Below are positions 12,877 through 36,338 of a stretch of DNA of 64,000 nt, one piece after another. The translations under genes were made by a program, and so were the position numbers. How positions within the stretch are numbered: position 1 is the stretch's first letter; each line of letters begins with the position of its first letter. Below the pieces are notes generated by a model. It saw only the letters and a list, made by a program, of their open reading frames with translations. It searched no databases and was not told where the DNA came from. This DNA is from Kitasatospora sp. NA04385 (GTDB lineage: Bacteria; Actinomycetota; Actinomycetes; Streptomycetales; Streptomycetaceae), in the NCBI RefSeq assembly GCF_013364235.1, contig NZ_CP054919.1, forward strand, positions 6,325,001-6,389,000, read 5' to 3'.

Positions 12877-13518
12877 ATGGCGAGGAAACCGCCGCGCTGG
12901 TACTTCTCGTTCGGCAGCGCGTACTCCTGGATGGCGTACCGGGACCTGACCACACGCTATCCGGACGTCGCGGAGGCGATCGAGTGGATCCCGTTCTGGG
13001 AGCCGAACGACGACCACCACGACGACCTGGAGTCCTCCGGGGTGCAACTGCCCTACGTGGAGCTCTCCCGGGAGAAGTACGCCTACGTCCTGCAGGACGT
13101 GCGCCGGCTGGCCCGCGAGCGCGAGCTGCGGATGGTCTGGCCGGTGGACCGGGCGCCCGACTGGGAGGTCTCGCACCTGGCCTACCTGGTGGCCCGGGAC
13201 GGCGGGTGCGGCCGGCAGTTCGCCGACGCGGCCTACCGGGCCCGCTGGGAGGAGGGCCGGGACATCTCCTCCCCGGAGGTGATCGCCCGGATCGGCGCGG
13301 ACCTCGGCCTCGACCCGGCCGCACTGGCCGGCGCCCGGCAGGACCCGCAGGTCCGCGCCCGGGGCCTGGAGGCGCTCAACGCCGCCTACCGGGACGGGGT
13401 GTTCGGCGTCCCGTACTTCATCGACGGCTTCCAGCGCTTCTGGGGCGTCGACCGGCTGCCCGGCTTCGTCTCCGCCGTGCGCCACCGTACGGCGGCCGCC
13501 CCCGCGGCCGTCCGCTGA
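12877..13518 (+). CDS. DsbA/kappa-GST-fold protein, HCCA isomerase-like
   Basis: ATG 12877 has GGAGG five bases upstream and is preferred over the TTG at 12865; the product is 213 residues. The N-terminal strand and helix [13 protein letters not shown] match the 2-hydroxychromene-2-carboxylate isomerase pattern F-x-S-P-Y-S-Y, with Ser14 in the catalytic position. The C-terminal GVFGVPYFI has the cis-proline of the thioredoxin fold. There is no CxxC (only one Cys, near 110), so it is not a disulfide oxidase. An isomerase acting on a carrier-bound or aromatic acyl substrate is possible. It lies 62 bases before mbtH under the same promoter. Confidence 0.78.
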
Positions 13519-13580: not shown

Positions 13581-13793
13581 ATGGCGACCAACCCGTTCGA
13601 GGACGACAGCGCCTCCTACTACGTCCTCGTCAACGAGGAGAACCAGCACTCGCTGTGGCCCGCCTTCGCCGAGGTCCCGGCGGGCTGGACCGTCGTGCAC
13701 GGCCAGGAGAGCCGCGAGTCCTGCCTGGAGTACGTCAACACCCACTGGACGGACATGCGCCCCAAGAGCCTCGTCGAGGCGATGGGCGCCTGA
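13581..13793 (+). CDS. MbtH-like NRPS accessory protein
   Basis: The 70-residue protein shows the family pattern [25 protein letters not shown] and the C-terminal [12 protein letters not shown] with conserved Trp residues. MbtH proteins bind adenylation domains and are needed for their folding or activity. ATG 13581 is preceded by CAGGAG. Its presence fits the NRPS upstream. Confidence 0.97.
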
Positions 13794-19473: not shown

Positions 19474-21402
19474 ATGTTGCGCGCCAAGAAAACGAGGGGC
19501 GTCGAGCGGCCGAACACCCGGCAGACCGCACCCGACCTGGAGTTCCGGCTGCTCGGACCGGTCGAGGCGGTGGCCGGCGGCCGGGAGATCGGACTGGACG
19601 GCGCGAAACAGCGCTCCGTCCTGGCCGCGCTGTTGCTGTCCGACGGCCGGATGCTGCCCGACGAGAGACTGCGGGCCCTGATCTGGGGCTGGGACCCGCC
19701 GGCCAGTTGGACCGCCCAACTGCACACCTACGCCTCGCGGTTGCGCTGCCGGCTCGGCCCCCAGGTCGAACTGGCCCGGCGCGCCCCCGGCTACCGGCTG
19801 GACATCGGCCAGTGCCGGGTCGACCTGTACCAGTTCCGCGAGGGCGCCGAACTCGGCCGCCGGGCCCTGGCGGCCGGAGAGTACGCCCGCGCCGCCCGAC
19901 TGCTCTCCGGCGCGCTCGCGCACTGGCGCGGCACCCCGCTCACCGGGGCCACCGCCCAGCTCGCGGCGAAGGAACTGCCCGCGCTGGAGGAGGACCGCCT
20001 CGCCGCCCTGGAGGACCGGATCGAGGCCGACCTCGCCCTCGGCGGCCACCGGCGCGTCGTCGCCGAACTGCGCGGCCTGGTCGCCGAGCACCCCACCCGG
20101 GAGGGCCTGCGCGGACAGCTGATGGCCGCCCTGTACCGCTGCGACCGGCAGGGCGACGCTCTGGAGGTCTACGACCGGGGGCGGCGGCTGCTCGCCGAGG
20201 AGCTGGGCGTCTTCCCGGGCCCGACCCTGCAGGAACTGCACGGCCGGATCCTCACCAACACCCTGTCCGGCCCGGCCGCCGCCGAACGGCCCGCCGTCCG
20301 GCTGTCCGCCCCCTCCGCCCCGCCCGCCCCGCCCGGGCCGGTGCCCGGGCCCGGCGCGTGGGACGGGCTCGTCCCGGCGATGCTGCCGCCCGCCGCCGCC
20401 GACTTCACCGGACGCCGGGGCCACCTGGCCGCGCTGCGGGCCGCCGTGGTCGGCGGGCCACCGGGCCGCCGGGCCCGGTCCGGACGGCCCGTCGGCCCCG
20501 CCGGTCCGGTCGTGCTCACCGGCGGCGCCGGGTGCGGGAAGTCCGCGCTCGCCGTCCAGGCCGCGCACCTGGCCCGGTCCGCCTTCCCCGGCGGCGTGCT
20601 CTACGCGGACCTGCGCGGCCCCGGCGGCCCCGCCCGCGGCCCGGCCGGGGTGCTCCGTTCCTTCCTGCGCGCCCTCGGCGCGGACGGGCGCGAACTCCCT
20701 TCCGGCACCGATGAGTTGATCCTCCTCTACCGCAGCAGGCTGGCCGGGCGGAAGATCCTGGTGGTGCTGGACAACGCCCGCGACGAACGCTCCGTCCGCC
20801 CGCTGCTCACCCCCGACGCCTGCGGCCGCACCATCGTCACCAGCCGCTGCGCCCTGCCCACCATCGAGGGGGCGCAGCGCCTCCAGGTCGGCCCGCTGGA
20901 GTTCCCCGAGGCGTACCGGCTGCTCGTCGCGGCCGGACGGGAACGGGCCGGCGCCGACCCGGAAGCCACCGCCCGGATCGTCGAGTTCTGCGACCGGCTG
21001 CCGCTCGCCCTGCGGATCTGCGCGTCCCGGCTGGCCGCCCAGCCGCACTGGACGGCCGCCCGGCTGGCCGACCGGCTCGCCCCCGACGAACGCCGGCTGG
21101 ACGAACTGCGCCTGGGCGAACTGGACGTCCGGGCCACCCTGGCGGAGGACCTGCCGGGGCTCCGACCGGCCGTCCGCACCGCCCTGGGGGCACTGGCGAG
21201 GTCCGGCGCCGACAGCGTCACCCCGGCGGAGGCCGCCGGGGTGCTGCGCTGCTGCGAGCGGGAGGCCGAGGAGGCGCTGGAGCTGCTCACCGCGGCCCGG
21301 CTGCTGACCGTCGACCCGGGCCCGGCCGAACTGCGCTACCGGATGGCGTCGCTGGTCCGCCTGGTGGTCCGGGAGCAGCCGGCCGCCGCGCTCGCGGCCT
21401 GA
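19474..21402 (+). CDS. SARP-family regulator with NB-ARC-type ATPase domain
   Basis: From ATG 19474 the protein has 642 residues. Residues about 15-110 form the OmpR-like winged helix (LEFRLLGPVEAV, LLLSDGRMLPDERL). Residues 115-270 form the bacterial transcriptional activation domain (ELGRRAL to ELGVFPGPTLQELH). After a Pro/Ala linker comes an NB-ARC-like domain with Walker A GGAGCGKSALA and ILVVLDNARD. The TPR tail of large SARPs is missing, so it is medium-sized. SARPs activate pathway genes by binding direct repeats with 11-bp periodicity; the cluster box has such a period. GTG 19429, with a G-rich upstream run, is an alternative start. Confidence 0.93.
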   Translation: MLRAKKTRGVERPNTRQTAPDLEFRLLGPVEAVAGGREIGLDGAKQRSVLAALLLSDGRMLPDERLRALIWGWDPPASWTAQLHTYASRLRCRLGPQVELARRAPGYRLDIGQCRVDLYQFREGAELGRRALAAGEYARAARLLSGALAHWRGTPLTGATAQLAAKELPALEEDRLAALEDRIEADLALGGHRRVVAELRGLVAEHPTREGLRGQLMAALYRCDRQGDALEVYDRGRRLLAEELGVFPGPTLQELHGRILTNTLSGPAAAERPAVRLSAPSAPPAPPGPVPGPGAWDGLVPAMLPPAAADFTGRRGHLAALRAAVVGGPPGRRARSGRPVGPAGPVVLTGGAGCGKSALAVQAAHLARSAFPGGVLYADLRGPGGPARGPAGVLRSFLRALGADGRELPSGTDELILLYRSRLAGRKILVVLDNARDERSVRPLLTPDACGRTIVTSRCALPTIEGAQRLQVGPLEFPEAYRLLVAAGRERAGADPEATARIVEFCDRLPLALRICASRLAAQPHWTAARLADRLAPDERRLDELRLGELDVRATLAEDLPGLRPAVRTALGALARSGADSVTPAEAAGVLRCCEREAEEALELLTAARLLTVDPGPAELRYRMASLVRLVVREQPAAALAA

Positions 21403-21437: not shown

Positions 21438-21587
21438 TCAGCCGCAGCCGCCGGCGTGGCCGAAGTCCAGGCTGCGGGCGGGCATCGGCGCGGTCGCGGC
21501 CAGCAGTTCCGGGTCGGCGAGGAGCAGTTCGAGGTCGAGGTGCTCCGGGCCGTCCTGGACGGCGGCGGGGTCGGTGGTGGTCTCCAT
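21438..21587 (-). CDS. 49-residue peptide with LDLELL leader-like part and GGCG tail
   Basis: ATG 21587 is preceded on the minus strand by GGAGGAACC, an excellent ribosome site, and the frame ends at 21438. The N-terminal part is acidic and Leu-rich (EHLDLELLLADPELLAA). A short spacer APMPARS is followed by the tail LDFGHAGGCG with the only Cys next to last. Leader-like acidic helix plus Gly/Cys/His-rich core resembles a RiPP precursor, but no lanthionine, cyclodehydratase or radical-SAM gene lies in the window. It closes an operon with the SnoaL-like, reductase and A-PCP-TE genes. A scaffold or carrier peptide is another possibility. Function unknown. Confidence 0.7.
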   Translation of the reverse strand: METTTDPAAVQDGPEHLDLELLLADPELLAATAPMPARSLDFGHAGGCG

Positions 21588-21676
21588 GGTTCCTCCGGTT
21601 CTCTGCGGGTCTCTCTACGGGGTCTCGCTGGCGGGGTCTTCGGTCCTCGGCGGTGCCGGGACCGCCCGGCGGTGGG

Positions 21677-22105
21677 TCAGCCGTCGATCAGCCGGGCGAA
21701 CGCGACGGTGTCGAACACGTCCTCCATCCGGACGGCCAGCCCGTCCCGGAAGGTCCAGGAGTGCACGAAGGACAGGTTCTCGGTGCGGCCGCCCAGCGAG
21801 GTGACGTCGCGGACGCCGAACACCACCACCCGGTCCCCGGAGTGCAGGAACTCCCGCGGCTCCAGCCGCATCCCGCCCAGGACGGACGGGACCCGGCCGA
21901 GGAACTCCCGGACGCCCCGGTGGCCGTGCTTGGTGCCGCCGAGGCCGTACCCGGCCAGGCCCTCGGGGTGGACCCACTCGATCTCCGGGTCCATGGTGGC
22001 CAGCAGCGCGGCCACGTCCCGGTCGTGGAAGGCGCGGTAGGCGGCGCGGACGGCCGCGAGGTTGTCGTGCGCGACGGGCGCGGGGACGGGTGTGGGAACG
22101 GGCAT
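21677..22105 (-). CDS. SnoaL-like/NTF2-fold protein
   Basis: The 142-residue protein has the SnoaL/NTF2 pattern: AAYRAFHDRDVAALLATMDPEIEWVHPEG, then REFLGRVP and SWTFRDGLAVRMEDVFD. Members act as cyclases, hydroxylases or isomerases in polyketide pathways, and many remain uncharacterised. It starts 13 bases after the reductase stop. The first residues are a Pro/Val repeat (PVPTPVPAPV). Which reaction it performs cannot be told. Confidence 0.85.
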   Translation of the reverse strand: MPVPTPVPAPVAHDNLAAVRAAYRAFHDRDVAALLATMDPEIEWVHPEGLAGYGLGGTKHGHRGVREFLGRVPSVLGGMRLEPREFLHSGDRVVVFGVRDVTSLGGRTENLSFVHSWTFRDGLAVRMEDVFDTVAFARLIDG

Positions 22106-22118
22106 GGGGACGGGCTCC

Positions 22119-23114
22119 TCAGCGGGGGACGGGGTCGAGGCGGGCGGCCCCGGCGGGCGCGGGCGCGGCGGCGGGCGCGGGCGTCAGGTGCTCGGGCCGC
22201 AGGTGGTCGGGGTGCAGCGCCTCCAGCGTCCGGCGGATGCCCTCGCGCCAGTCGACCAGGCACGGGCCGGTCAGACGGCGGCGCAGCGCCGGGTCGAACC
22301 GGTAGGTCTCCCGGGTGACCGCACTGGGCTCCAGCAGCGCGGGCACCCCGGTCAGCTCCTCCAGGTGCCGCAGGCAGTCGGTGATCCCGACCGCCTCGTC
22401 CCCGCCCCAGTTGACCAGGGTCGCGGGCACCGAGGCGGCCTCCCACAGCGCCGGCACCTGCCGGACGATGTCGTCGGTGTGGATCGGGGAGCACCAGTTC
22501 TGGCCCTCCAGCGGGACGGGCACCGGCTGCCCGGCCAGCATCCGCCGGAAGTACAGCATCGGCACGCCGCCGTAACCCCCGGGCCCGTAGGCGATGTTGA
22601 GCCGGGCGATGGTGGTGGGCAGCCCGAGCACCCGGGCCAGCGCGCGGACCGCGCCCTCGGTGGCGATCTTGCCGACCGGGTAGGCGGGCAGCCAGTCCGC
22701 GACGCCGTCCACCGGGTCGTCCTCGGTGTAGGCGTGGTCGAGGGTCTGCCGGGCGTACAGCGCGCCGGTCGACACGTACAGGAAGGACTCGGCGGAGCGG
22801 CAGTGCGCCATCAGCCGGCCGGTGGCGGTGGTGTTGACGTGCACCGTCCGGTTGAAGTCGCCGTCGTCGCCGCGCCGCACCGCCGAGTGGACGACGTGGG
22901 TGAAGTCTTCCGGCAGGCCCGCGTAGGCGCCGTCCGAGTCGTCCTCCATGTCCCACCGCCAGGTGGTGACGCCCCGGGCGCGCAGCTGCTCCTCGACGCC
23001 GGGGGTGCCGAAGCGGCCCAGGCACCACACCTCGTTGTGCTCGGCCAGCGCCTCCGCCACCGGCCGGGCGACCTGCCCGGTGCCGCCGGTCACCAGGATC
23101 TTCTTGCCCCTCAC
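22119..23114 (-). CDS. NAD-dependent epimerase/reductase (extended SDR)
   Basis: The 331-residue protein starts with a Rossmann motif [11 protein letters not shown], then [11 protein letters not shown] and the catalytic YPVGK (YxxxK), and AYGPGGYGG later. It fits the extended SDR family that includes sugar epimerases and ketoreductases. The GTG start overlaps the A-PCP-TE stop (GTGA), so it is probably translationally coupled and acts on the product of that synthetase. The last 40 residues are an Ala/Pro tail. Confidence 0.88.
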
Positions 23115-25870
23115 GCGTCCGCCCCCATCGCCCGGTCCAGTTCCTCGCGCAGGATCGCCTGGAAGGCCGCCACGTGCTGCGGGCCCATCAGGGTGTAGTG
23201 CTCGCCCGGCACCGCCACGTACCGGGTGTCCTCCTCGGTGAAGTCGTCCCAGCGGCGCAGCTCCTTCTCCAGCCAGTCGGCCCTGGTGCCGCGCAGCGGC
23301 TCGGCGTGGAAGACCGTCATCGCGCGGACCGTGCCCTCCGGCCGGTACGAGCGGCCCAGGTCGGTGAGCCGGTCGGCGAGGTCGGCCCAGTTGGCGAACC
23401 GCTCCCGGTCCAGGTCGAGTTCGGCGATCCGGGCGGGCGGCGCGAGGGCCAGCAGCCGGTCGATCTGCTCGTCCTGCGGCAGGCCGCGCAGCTGCCCGGG
23501 CAGCTCCCCGGCCTGCCGCTTGTCGACCAGCGCCAGGAAGAAGGCCAGGTTGACGGCGGTCTCGACGAAGTCCAGCTCGTCCATCCGGTACTTGATGTGC
23601 GGCGGCAGGTTGAAGCTGCCCAGGAAGCCGACCCGCTCGCCCGCCCGCTCCAGCTGCTTGGCGATCTCGAAGGCCACCGCGGCGCCGAAGGAGTACCCGG
23701 CGAGGGCGTACGGGCCGTGCGGCTGCCGGGCCCGGATCGCCGCCACGTAGCTGTCGACCATTTCTTCGAAGGTCCGGAACGGCTTCTCGCCCTCGTTGAA
23801 GCCGCGGGCCCGCAGCGCGTGGAACGGCCGCTCCCCGACGAAGTACCGGGCCAGGTTGACGAAGACCAGCACCTCGCCGACCCCCGGGTGGACGCAGAAC
23901 AGCGGCGTGCGGTCGCCACCGGTCTGCATCGGCACCACCGGGTCGTACGCCGTCTCACCCAGCCCCCGCGGCTGGGTGAGACGGCTCGCCAGCGAGCGCA
24001 CGGTCGGCGCGTTCAGCAGGGTGATCACCGGCAGGTCCGCGACGCCGAGGCGGGCCGTGATCCGGCCGCGCAGCCGCAGGATGTCCAGCGAGGTGCCGCC
24101 CAGGTCGAAGAAGCTCGCGGTGGCGCTGATCCGCTCCGGCGCGGTGTCGAACAGCTCGGCGTAGATCTCCGCCAGCGCCGTCTCCACCTCCCCCTGCGGG
24201 GCGCTGTGCCCGCCGAGGTGGAGTTCGGTCAGCTCCTCGGCCGCGCGCAGCTCCCGCTCGTACCCGCCGGACTCCAGGCGCCGGCGCATCAGCGAGCGCT
24301 GGATCTTGCCCAGGCTGGTCTTCGGGAAGGCCTCCAGCGGCAGCGGCAGCACCAGGGCCGGCCGGAACCCCCAGGTCATCACGGTGCTGCTGCGGACCGC
24401 CACCATCGCCCGGTAGCGCCCCGCGGCGTCCTCCTCGGGCAGCGGGCAGTGGAAGGCCACCACCAGCTGCTCGGTGTCGCCGCCCGGGCGGACCGGGAAC
24501 GCGGCGACGTACGAGGGGCTGACCCCGTCCAGGCGCTCCAGCACGCTCTCCAGCTCGTGGCTGAAGTAGTTGACCCCGTTGACGATCACGCTGTCCTTGC
24601 TGCGCCCGACCAGGGTGAGCCGCCCCCCGTCGATCCGGCCCAGGTCGCCGCTGCGGAACCAGCCGTCGGCGGTGAACGCCGCCGCGGTCGCCGCCGCGTC
24701 GTTGTGGTACCCGGAGGTGATCATCGGGCCGGTCAGCTGGAGCTCGCCGACCTCGCCCTCGGGCAGCGCGCGGTCCGCGGGGTCGGCGACCCGGATCCGC
24801 AGCCCCGCCACCGGCGTGCCCAGGTCGGCGAACTCCCGGCCCCCGTCGCCCTCCGGGAAGGCGAGCGAGTAGACGCTGCCCGCGCAGGTCTCGGTCATCC
24901 CGAAGGCCGGCCACAGCGCCGCCGGGTCCAGGCCGTACGGGGCGTAGTGCGCCAGGAAGGCCCGGCCGGTCGCGCGGACCACGGCCTCGCCGCCGCTGAC
25001 GATGTGCCGCAGCCGGGACAGGTCCAGCCCCGCCAGGTCGACCGCCGGGAGCCGCTCGGCGGCCGAGACCAGCAGGCCGAGCAGGAAGTTGGGGGTGAAG
25101 GTCATCGTCACGCCGTGCTCGGAGGCCAGCCGGAGGAACTCCAGCGGCTCCCCGAGCACCGTCCCCGGCTGCACGTGCACCTGGCGGCAGCCCGCCCACA
25201 GCGGCAGCAGGTGGCACTCCAGCAGCGCGGCGACGTGGTCGAAGGACACCCAGTTCATCGAGGTGTCGGCGGGGGTGAGCCGGTGGTAGCCGTTCTTCCC
25301 GGCCATCGACGCCAGCAGGTTGGCGTGGCTGAGCCTGACCGCCTTGGGCAGGCCGGTCGACCCCGAGGTCAGCACCAGTACGGCGTCGTCCTCCGGCGCG
25401 GCCCGGTGCACCGGCTCCGCGGCGGGGTCGCCGCCGGTCGGCAGCAGTCCGTCGACGGTGGCCACCACCAGGCCCGGCACCTCGGGCAGCTCCCGGGCCA
25501 GTTCCCCGTCGGTGACCACCAGCGGCCCGTCCAGCAGGTCCCGGACGTGGGCGAGTTGCGCCGCCCAGCGCTCCCGGTCGGTGCGCACCGGCGTCATCGG
25601 GCACGGGACGAAACCGCCGAGCTGCGCGGCCCAGAACGCGGTCAGGAACTGCGCCTGGTCCTCCAGCAGCAGAACCACCTTGTCCTGCGGCCGCAGCCCG
25701 CGGGCCCGCAGCCCGGCCAGCAGCCGGCGTGCCTCGTACAGGAGTTGGACGTGGCTCTGCTCCCGGTGATCGGAGCCCGCGCCGCCGGAGCAGTAGCGGA
25801 TGCCGTTCTCCGGCTGCTGCTCGGCGGCTCCGAGCAGCAGGTCGACGCTGGTGCGCGGGGGGTTCGTCAT
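23111..25870 (-). CDS. Free-standing A-PCP-TE synthetase (atromentin/polyporic-acid type)
   Basis: ATG 25870 has GGAG upstream; the protein has 919 residues. The adenylation domain (1 to about 555) has [11 protein letters not shown], and its [10 protein letters not shown]...CRQVHV segment is the pattern I know from fungal atromentin synthetases, bacterial p-terphenyl enzymes and some polyketide loading ligases. The A10 lysine is in [10 protein letters not shown]. The carrier protein has LGGTSLD (Ser594). The thioesterase has GYSFG (Ser727) and GEHYTLM. No condensation domain exists. It may join two aryl-keto acids or activate one acid and hand it over. Upstream CCAATG-free DNA gives no SD other than GGAG. 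Confidence 0.9.
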
Positions 25871-28148: not shown

Positions 28149-28190
28149 CCCGGCCGGGGGCGTCCTCACCCGAGGCCGCCCCCGGCCGGG
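28149..28190. terminator. Convergent terminator
   Basis: A perfect 13-bp GC stem (28149-28161 with 28178-28190) and 16-nt loop lie between convergent genes; the right arm is inside the 3' end of the minus-strand gene. Confidence 0.7.
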
Positions 28191-28447
28191 CCGGCGTCGG
28201 GCCGCTCCGGGTCGGGTCGCCCCGTCTCGGACTGCCCCAAGGGTTGCTCCGCGTCGGGCTGCTCCGCTTCGGCGTGCAGGGTGATCAGCTCGGTCAGCGC
28301 GTCGATGTACGCGGCCAGCACCTCGCCCCACGGCAGCTCACTGGCCCGCAGTTGGGCGGTCTCCTGATCCTCGTGCGCCTGCTCGATCTGGCGCAGGACG
28401 CACAGCGGGTGGTGGACCCGAGCGGGGTCGCGCTCGTCTTGGTTCAT
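28166..28447 (-). CDS. Small acidic protein of unknown function
   Basis: ATG 28447 has AGGAGATTCC before it; the product has 93 residues. The N-terminal 60 residues look helical (LRQIEQAHEDQETAQLRAS, then YIDALTELITLHAEAE), and the tail is a Pro/Glu/Gly-rich repeat. I do not recognise it. It is convergent with the regulator pair and has a good ribosome site, so it is probably real. Confidence 0.6.
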   Translation of the reverse strand: MNQDERDPARVHHPLCVLRQIEQAHEDQETAQLRASELPWGEVLAAYIDALTELITLHAEAEQPDAEQPLGQSETGRPDPERPDAGPAGGGLG

Positions 28448-34491: not shown

Positions 34492-35325
34492 ATGCGTCGT
34501 ACGGAACTTGACCCCTCGTCATCTCCCGCTGCTGCTTTCGGCCTACAGCTCCGCAGGTCGCGGGAGATACGGAACCTGTCCCAGGTGCAGCTCGGCGACC
34601 TCATGGGGTACAGCGACACCCTCATCTCGTGCATCGAAAGAGCTACCCGCAGTCCCACCGCTGACTTCGCGGCCCGGGCCGACGAGGCGCTGGCCACCGG
34701 CGGGACGCTGGGGCTGATGTGGTGGAGCCTCAAGAACCAGAGCCTGCTGGAGGGCTTCCCCGAGTACGCGGCGGAGGAAGCGAAGGCGGTGGAGATCCGC
34801 CTGTTCGAACTGGGCATCGTCCCGGGGCTGCTACAGACCTCGGCCTACGCGCGGGCGGTGGCTCAGGCCGCTGTGAAGCGCGGCGCGATCACCCAGGCGC
34901 AGGCGGACGAGCGGATGGACTTCCTCGCGGCCCGCCAACGCCTGTTCGACCAGTCGAAGCCGCCGCTGCTGCACGTCGTCCTGGACGAGAGCTGCATCAG
35001 GCGTCCGATCGGCGGCCGGGAGGTGATGGCGGCTCAACTCGACCATCTCGTGGAGCTGTCGGACCGACCGAACGTCACCCTGCAGCTCGCCCCGTACAGC
35101 CTGGGAGAGATTGTGCCGTTCTACATGTCGGTGACCCTGCTGACCATGGCCGATCGATCCGTACTCGCGTACACGGAATCCCAGCACCGGGGCATCCTCA
35201 CGCGTGAAATCGAGACCGTCCGACCGTGGGAGAGGGACTACCATCGGCTCCAGGTGGAAGCCCACGGCACGTCGGCTTCCGTGGCGAAGATCAGCAGGCT
35301 TCGGAAGGAAGACCATGGACCGTGA
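34492..35325 (+). CDS. Scr1-type XRE regulator (HTH + DUF5753)
   Basis: The 277-residue protein has an XRE helix-turn-helix (SREIRNLSQVQLGDLMGYSDTLIS) and a C-terminal DUF5753 domain (FELGIVPGLLQTSAYARAV, LLHVVLDESCIRRPIGG, LQLAPYSLGE). Such genes are paired with DUF397 genes throughout Streptomyces, and the pairs may act like regulator/anti-regulator or toxin-antitoxin sets. Here the stop overlaps the first DUF397 start by 11 bases. Its last 84 bases are the start of the tandem repeat that carries the DUF397 copies. Confidence 0.93.
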   Translation: MRRTELDPSSSPAAAFGLQLRRSREIRNLSQVQLGDLMGYSDTLISCIERATRSPTADFAARADEALATGGTLGLMWWSLKNQSLLEGFPEYAAEEAKAVEIRLFELGIVPGLLQTSAYARAVAQAAVKRGAITQAQADERMDFLAARQRLFDQSKPPLLHVVLDESCIRRPIGGREVMAAQLDHLVELSDRPNVTLQLAPYSLGEIVPFYMSVTLLTMADRSVLAYTESQHRGILTREIETVRPWERDYHRLQVEAHGTSASVAKISRLRKEDHGP

Positions 35326-35536
35326 CCACGACCTGAGCCGTGCGGAGTTCCGCAGCTCCAGCTACAGCGCCAACGGCGGTCAGTGCATCCAGCCGGCGAC
35401 GAACCTGTACGCGGCGCGCGGCATCGTGCCGGTGCGTGACTCGAAGGACCAGGGCGGGCCGGTGCTGGTCTTCCCGGCGGCGGCCTGGGCCGCCTTCTGC
35501 GCCGCCACCGCCGCCGGTGAGTTCGGCGAGATCTGA
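35315..35536 (+). CDS. DUF397 protein, copy 1
   Basis: The 73-residue protein has the DUF397 pattern FRSSSYSANGGQCIQPA, then GIVPVRDSKDQ and PAAAWAAFCAA. It overlaps the XRE gene. Compared with copies 2 and 3 it differs at about five residues (for example Arg for Gly at 10, [12 protein letters not shown] for His-Ala-Ala-His). Confidence 0.93.
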   Translation: MDRDHDLSRAEFRSSSYSANGGQCIQPATNLYAARGIVPVRDSKDQGGPVLVFPAAAWAAFCAATAAGEFGEI

Positions 35537-35563
35537 CCTTCGGTCAACTCCGTTCAGCCGGGC

Positions 35564-35583
35564 GCCCCCTTCTCGGAGGGGGC
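35564..35583 (+). terminator. Terminator after DUF397 copy 1
   Basis: GCCCCCT and AGGGGGC pair around a 6-nt loop, followed by GTTCT. Confidence 0.65.
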
Positions 35584-35715
35584 GTTCTGCTGTCCGGGAG
35601 GTTCTGGCGGATCGGGCCCTCCCGGTGCGGCGGAGGAACTAGCATCGGCGTCAGGTGGGAGCCGACGGCATGTCGGCTTCCGCGGCGACAGCCGACGGCC
35701 TTCGGGAGGGACACC

Positions 35716-35937
35716 ATGGACCGTGACCACGACCTGAGCGGTGCGGAGTTCCGCAGCTCCAGCTACAGCGACAACGGCGGTCAGTGCATCCAGCCGGCGA
35801 CGAACCTGCACGCGGCCCACGGCATCGTGCCGGTGCGTGACTCGAAGGACCAGGGCGGGCCGGTGCTGGTCTTCCCGGCGGCAGCCTGGGCCGCTTTTTG
35901 CGCCGCCACCGCCGCCGGTGAGTTCGGCGAGATCTGA
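35716..35937 (+). CDS. DUF397 protein, copy 2
   Basis: 73 residues, GGGAGG ribosome site. Nearly identical to copy 3; Asp at position 19 where copy 3 has Asn and copy 1 Ala. It has no XRE partner of its own; the DNA in front is a worn copy of the XRE 3' end. Confidence 0.93.
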   Translation: MDRDHDLSGAEFRSSSYSDNGGQCIQPATNLHAAHGIVPVRDSKDQGGPVLVFPAAAWAAFCAATAAGEFGEI

Positions 35938-35965
35938 CCTCCGGTCAACTCCGTTCAGCCGGGCC

Positions 35966-35985
35966 GCCCCCTCCTCGGAGGGGGC
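35966..35985 (+). terminator. Terminator after DUF397 copy 2
   Basis: Same 7-bp hairpin as after copy 1 with one loop change. Confidence 0.65.
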
Positions 35986-36116
35986 GTTCTGCTGCCCGGG
36001 AGGTTCTGGCGGATCGGGCCCCCCGGCGCGACGGAGGAACTAGCATCGGCGTCAGGTGGAAGCCGACGGCATGTCGGCTTCCGCGGCGACAGCCGACGGC
36101 CTTCGGGAGGGACACC

Positions 36117-36338
36117 ATGGATCGTGACCACGACCTGAGCGGCGCGGAGTTCCGCAGCTCCAGCTACAGCAACAACGGCGGTCAGTGCATCCAGCCGGCG
36201 ACGAACCTGCACGCGGCCCACGGCATCGTGCCGGTGCGCGACTCGAAGGACCAGGGCGGGCCGGTGCTGGTCTTCCCGGCGGCAGCCTGGGCCGCCTTCT
36301 GCGCCGCCACCGCCGCCGGTGAGTTCGGCGAGATCTGA
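36117..36338 (+). CDS. DUF397 protein, copy 3
   Basis: 73 residues, GGGAGG ribosome site; differs from copy 2 only at position 19 (Asn). The repeat ends within a few bases of the stop, so the terminator is lost. Confidence 0.93.
   Translation: MDRDHDLSGAEFRSSSYSNNGGQCIQPATNLHAAHGIVPVRDSKDQGGPVLVFPAAAWAAFCAATAAGEFGEI

Follow-up and report, generated by a model that had tools for sequence, protein, structure and literature searches.

A short gene and its surroundings

The window (the whole 64,000-nucleotide stretch of Kitasatospora sp. NA04385 DNA analysed here) contains, on its minus strand, an unannotated open reading frame that translates as METTTDPAAVQDGPEHLDLELLLADPELLAATAPMPARSLDFGHAGGCG followed by a stop codon (Table 1). 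On the same strand it is preceded by genes for an A-PCP-TE protein, an SDR and a SnoaL-like protein. Its GC content by codon position (0.80/0.52/0.94) is like that of the adjoining genes, and it is called as a gene by a codon-usage score trained on the other genes of the window. Among 70 genomes of the genus, homologues at E <= 0.01 are present in four, the window's own included: two are orthologues (73% and 66% identity, E values of 4.8e-17 and 1e-12) and the fourth is a weak match within a long frame. The terminal GHAGGCG is identical in all three genus peptides, and over their final 11 codons the three genes differ by silent changes save one, an F/V replacement just before GHAGGCG. The peptide itself had no match among the plasmid records searched, and the search of viral contigs found nothing. 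Being coding-like and having orthologues in two relatives, the 49-residue gene is real, as the original prediction maintained; ribosome-binding site, composition, codon score and the two orthologues agree on this. The prediction had been open to refutation by a lack of homologues beside similar genes or by codons speaking against selection, and both points were looked at; neither holds. Elsewhere in the window, three tandem, near-identical 73-residue genes lie at 35315-36338 (plus strand), the first of which matches DUF397.

Table 1. Features of the window (positions counted from its first nucleotide)
Feature	Position	Strand	Basis or remark
Stand-alone tail peptide, 49 aa, C-terminal SLDFGHAGGCG	21438..21587	-	ORF, composition, orthologues
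GHAGGCG tail codons and stop; Cys-Gly at the C-terminus	21438..21461	-	
Ribosome-binding site GGAGGA	21591..21596	-	Read from sequence, immediately 5' of ATG
Untailed HCCA-isomerase-like (DSBA fold) protein, 213 aa, proposed partner	12877..13518	+	Pfam DSBA 8.5e-19
MbtH-like gene of NRPS cluster, adjoins isomerase	13581..13793	+	
AfsR/SARP regulator, convergent with peptide	19474..21402	+	Same neighbour in 14/14 stand-alone GHAGGCG loci
SnoaL-like gene, putative ech-type cassette; neighbour, not partner	21677..22105	-	
NAD epimerase/SDR, putative ech-type cassette; neighbour	22119..23114	-	
A-PCP-TE, EchA-like; neighbour, not partner	23111..25870	-	Longest ORF start 25960
DUF6269 protein without Cys-Gly tail; homologous to the body of other tail peptides	28166..28447	-	

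Distribution of the tail

To follow the tail beyond the genus, a DNA pattern encoding GHxGGCG and followed by TRR was run on 394 sampled Streptomycetaceae genomes, where it occurred at 86 places in 74 genomes; 60 regions around pattern matches were fetched. Sixty of the 86 places read GHAGGCG with a true stop, and these comprise 41 isomerases, 14 peptides, two tandem copies and three apparently non-coding places. The 14 peptide genomes are G000 (that of the window), G004, G048, G027, G033, G254, G364, G185, G177, G287, G349, G203, G343 and G156, and the bodies of their stand-alone peptides fall into three types (LDLELL, SLE-EF-EWLEQ and DUF6269-like). Places in G022, G202 and G315 (the last two being the same DNA) were rejected as genes and classed as non-coding. 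Coding scores, computed for matches other than G315 and those ending in TGG, were negative or absent for G022, G202 and the non-Ala places L091, L093, L094 and L175-L178, and ran from 10.8 to 72.9 for 13 peptide frames scored alongside. Terminal Cys-Gly was also counted over all genes of the fetched loci: among 2821 genes called, 85 were isomerases, and 27 of the remaining 2736 ended in Cys-Gly, 25 of them tail peptides (two fetched twice).

A probable chance neighbour

The original prediction had considered that the peptide might be a substrate or carrier for the A-PCP-TE enzyme and proposed checking whether its homologues always sit beside A-PCP-TE or SnoaL genes. The A-PCP-TE cassette is, in fact, present at just three of the 14 stand-alone GHAGGCG loci (flanks of roughly 8 kb). 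Conversely, when the A-PCP-TE was used as query and 80 loci were fetched with flanks of at most 8 kb (some ended by contig ends), tblastn placed an SDR gene beside it in 65 loci and a SnoaL gene in 56 but the peptide near it in two, L011 and L063. With loci so seldom shared from either side, the A-PCP-TE was rejected as the peptide's partner. For some A-PCP-TE genes, tblastn gave weak matches to the peptide at a distance of about 1.7 kb upstream; these matches lay inside long frames and away from their C-termini, and were dropped. At L011 (12270-12360) and L063 (13945-14025), CCATAG..CTATGG-like repeats occupy what is presumed to be the peptide-gene promoter and are possible regulator sites.

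The closest PDB relatives of the window A domain are McyG and 6ULW-type synthetases, which accept keto or aryl acids. Furthermore, the window A-PCP-TE (P0005) contains LGGTSL and GYSFG, both of them motifs reported for EchA (PMC9381841). Given these motifs and the shared set of three genes, the A-PCP-TE, SDR and SnoaL genes look like an echoside-type (ech) A-T-TE cassette that lies next to the peptide by chance; unlike the window locus, ech-type cassettes are mostly without the peptide. At L055 (7220-10736, plus strand) there is overlap between the genes for a fused GHAGGCG isomerase and an ech-type A-PCP-TE, which suggests that the ech-type and isomerase pathways are sometimes linked.

An untailed isomerase in the same window

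The isomerases that end in this tail have a relative within the window (Table 1), which shares 48-62% identity with 16 tailed isomerases (A2) and 56% with another untailed one, and which is itself without linker and tail, its stop codon preceding the tail position. The genome holds a second untailed isomerase (DSBA) some 50 kb upstream, within 6278-6298 kb, a stretch in which Pfam also identifies two ACP, four ketosynthase-type, two FabA-like, one KR-type SDR and one NRPS gene; further NRPS-like reading frames were recognised by eye up to 6318 kb, this reading covering the upstream stretch to that point and then the window, which starts 7 kb further on. Related isomerases likewise cluster with KS, ACP, dehydratase, FabG and NRPS genes, the KS and ACP clusters each being found at 44 of 57 related loci. 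In gene content, the region resembles the cinnamoyl-containing peptide clusters described in the available parts of PMC6510318 and PMC9321520. Clusters of this kind hold the cinnamoyl-lipid/CCNP polyene isomerases Sky27, YsfG, GlaV and EpcL, whose assigned role is E-to-Z isomerisation (PMC6510318, PMC9381841, PMC9321520); compared by description only, in the portions of those sources at hand, they are presented with no mention of a Cys-Gly tail or partner peptide. A literature search, whose reach ended short of the primary youssoufene study, found neither GHAGGCG nor such a tail or partner peptide.

A trio of small genes also recurs in the cinnamoyl-type clusters (L249 12558-13700, minus strand; clusters c10-c12; 11 of 57 loci and the window genome), one of its genes having a DsrE match above the cut-off (L249) and another a weak one (L129); the trio may be connected with the isomerase through sulfur or thiol chemistry.

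Fused and split forms

We next consider how tail and isomerase are distributed together. A census profile built from 18 isomerases, with the best seven candidates scored per genome, gave at least 86 matches in 79 of the 394 Streptomycetaceae genomes. Fifty-nine of the 86 matches end in Cys-Gly (58 GGCG, one GACG) and 24 are untailed; the match in G233 is the N-terminal fragment of a broken gene, whose genome was counted as fused by the other part, and second copies in G004 and G048 lay outside the fetched regions, their matches ending before the tail. Counted by genome (n = 79), 56 are fused, with a Gly-[Gly/Ala]-Cys-Gly tail, and 23 are untailed. A separate tail peptide is present in 22 of these 23 (13 GHAGGCG and nine DTAGGCG, the nine all immediately downstream of the isomerase), and in none of the 56 fused genomes was a separate coding peptide found of either of the two tail types searched for, GHxGGCG and D[TS]AGGCG, the DTAGGCG search having taken in the 79 isomerase genomes and G203. 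Among the fused genomes, G145 has one non-coding GHLGGCG-stop (L093) and G154 repeats its own tail code in tandem: at L165 7900-8240 (minus strand), 89-bp repeats lie behind the fused isomerase, each reading GHAGGC[GA] in putative translation. Two genomes depart from the pairing: untailed G171, in which no peptide was found and whose isomerase is on a 4.9-kb contig, and G203, in which a peptide is present and none of the candidates scored matches the isomerase. The association of form with peptide is pronounced when kinship is ignored (Fisher p 1.2e-18); corrected for kinship, four well-supported independent pairs nearly always lie in the predicted direction (p 0.125), on a tree that requires at least six changes between fused and untailed forms. 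The pairing of an untailed isomerase with a separate peptide is thus strongly supported by the sequence comparisons, and we read the window as a split system made up of its untailed isomerase and its 49-residue peptide.

The same arrangement was encountered outside the census. A class-wide sample yielded the isomerase in eight of 266 genomes, three of them outside Streptomycetaceae: in G614, of another family, the isomerase is untailed and a 41-residue DTAGGCG peptide starts inside its stop codon; in G483 it is fused, with a tail ending DTTGGCG; and in G468 it is interrupted by the contig end. Plasmid records with an isomerase match numbered 119, of which 27 were from Streptomyces, and six of these 27 were fetched, four with fused and two with untailed isomerases. 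Both of the latter plasmids, neither of which has the length of any census contig, hold exactly one AGGCG-stop, in a gene for 75 residues annotated as DUF6269 and flanked by a tryptophan 7-halogenase and a BTAD regulator. The same search supplied six HCCA isomerases of proteobacteria, none of which has Cys-Gly at its end.

DUF6269 (PF19784), to which Pfam assigns no function, corresponds to the body of other GHAGGCG peptides. Of the nine from outside the genus, eight were compared with it, six matching above the cut-off and two weakly below, and the model stops two residues before the Cys-Gly end of full-length peptides. The window peptide had no match to DUF6269, and a tail-less gene elsewhere in the window (Table 1) scored 61 bits against a gathering score of 25; in the window's clade, a different small protein may have taken over the tail from DUF6269. 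The G048 locus (L180) also has a tail-less DUF6269 gene.

What is conserved in the tail

A two-part peptide with a tail that matters had been foreseen in the original prediction, and it is this tail that was then found on isomerases; the prediction's further suggestion, a leader-core RiPP precursor, fares poorly. On such a reading the peptide would be a RiPP precursor or scaffold, its tail being either a core made into product or a carrier. The leader-tail layout would suit this, as would a Trp-halogenase-like gene that lies divergently upstream in eight of the 14 stand-alone GHAGGCG loci and beside the peptide on both plasmids. Two of the three LDLELL-type peptides, the window's included, have a SnoaL gene and no halogenase upstream, however, and none of the listed neighbours, part of which were family-scanned, was recognisable as a RiPP or PEARL enzyme. 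RiPP cores usually vary. The peptide is not RiPP-core-like, because its tail hardly varies and also ends large isomerases, well beyond dedicated precursors, and we regard this explanation as very unlikely.

The isomerase tree comprises two clades (support 100/100) that divide by tail type, with 67 isomerases of the His-type tail (including untailed G171) and 17 of the D[TS]AGGCG type, and both clades mix fused and split forms. Tail type therefore tracks isomerase clade, whether fused or split. In the D[TS]AGGCG clade, the likeness between stand-alone (type-2) peptides and fused linkers extends upstream of the tail: seven of ten such peptides score above the best of 200 shuffled sets. Such clade-specific tails would suit a protein contact, and we considered whether the tail serves for docking or assembly, holding the isomerase in a type II PKS complex, with a structural or metal-binding cysteine and the chemistry left to mycothiol. 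That tails sit on variable linkers between isomerase and tail, and can be separate proteins, is also compatible with docking. Yet the invariant part of the fused tails is Cys-Gly-COOH (59/59), and it is the residues upstream that vary by clade (GHAGGCG, SHAGGCG, DTAGGCG, TDTAGACG), so that the His of GHAGGCG is not universal; this pattern suits a thiol ligand better, and docking seems to us unlikely.

Of the fused tails, 58 of 59 also have GG before CG, which invites comparison with sulfur carriers. Sulfur carriers with residues after GG exist, and cleavage after GG would here produce a thiocarboxylate, with the DsrE-like neighbours (the small-gene trio described above) relaying sulfur. The sole tail without GG, TDTAGACG, nevertheless retains Cys-Gly, and we give the sulfur-carrier explanation a very slim chance.

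A proposed replacement for glutathione

When compared with PDB chains, the A2 profile matched 3FZ5 (2.5e-20), 2IMD (3e-8) and 3RPN (3.8e-6), relatives from the HCCA isomerase/kappa-class GST group with which the present enzymes have in common the fold, as judged from sequence, a serine and a WGxDR-type motif. Ser14 is kept without exception (82 of 82 isomerases), and Trp-Gly-x-Asp-Arg is nearly so (W189 81/82, G190 82/82, D192 81/82, R193 82/82), both sets of positions aligning with HCCA isomerase 2IMD and kappa GST 3RPN. In this enzyme family the serine is catalytic. The three PDB chains are 202-234 residues long; what sets the present enzymes apart is a Cys-Gly tail, either built in or, as proposed here, borrowed. 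Other isomerase cysteines are non-universal: one column is Cys in 46 of 82, and the matched part is without any other cysteine in ten of 24 untailed and nine of 58 fused isomerases. An AlphaFold model of the fused L055 isomerase, built from a two-sequence alignment (mean pLDDT 57.7, tail <50), was too poor to place the tail.

The DSBA fold, and the presence of FrnE and DsbA-type thiol proteins among the solved relatives, also raise the prospect of a redox partner, in which the tail cysteine would act as resolving thiol when disulfides are exchanged in DsbA-like fashion, and not as an isomerisation cofactor. The sequence around the invariant serine is S-x-x-S or similar and not CxxC, and the solved relatives include an HCCA isomerase and a kappa GST, which makes the redox reading scarcely credible.

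Glutathione is gamma-Glu-Cys-Gly, and the tail's free Cys-Gly end is thus glutathione's end. HCCA isomerase performs a cis-trans isomerisation in which free glutathione is an unconsumed cofactor (PMC10245115, in the part available). The major thiol of actinomycetes is mycothiol (PMC10950700, likewise in part). From the shared end, the mycothiol host and the retained Ser and WGxDR positions, we infer that the thiol comes from the tail. The peptide gene would then encode, as a detached piece, the C-terminal tail that belongs to a polyene cis-trans isomerase, supplying a thiol in place of glutathione, a reading to which we assign a probability of roughly 0.7. YsfG, from a cinnamoyl-lipid cluster, has been called glutathione-dependent in the portion of PMC9381841 at hand; a free thiol may suffice in vitro.

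In the proposed mechanism, the tail would occupy, in folded form, the site where a kappa-GST/HCCA-type isomerase takes glutathione, which would bring its cysteine next to the conserved serine. From there the thiolate would add reversibly to an ACP-bound polyene, the bond would rotate from E to Z, and the thiolate would leave, the polyene then being ready to close into the benzene ring of the cinnamoyl group. The tail would thereby stand in for glutathione in mycothiol-making bacteria. The window peptide would act in trans on the untailed isomerase of the window and perhaps also serve the second untailed copy.

Implications

More generally, we consider it probable that small proteins ending in GGCG are a ribosomally encoded, trans-acting replacement for glutathione in kappa-GST-fold isomerases, repeatedly fused and split, and that this is the function of DUF6269. 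If so, a small-molecule cofactor has been replaced by a gene product, tethered or diffusible, which would explain how a glutathione-type isomerase can be at work in mycothiol bacteria and would provide a role for DUF6269, a family of unknown function. The peptide gene would also fill a gap where cinnamoyl-containing antibiotics are to be expressed heterologously; its absence could be hidden by glutathione in an E. coli host.
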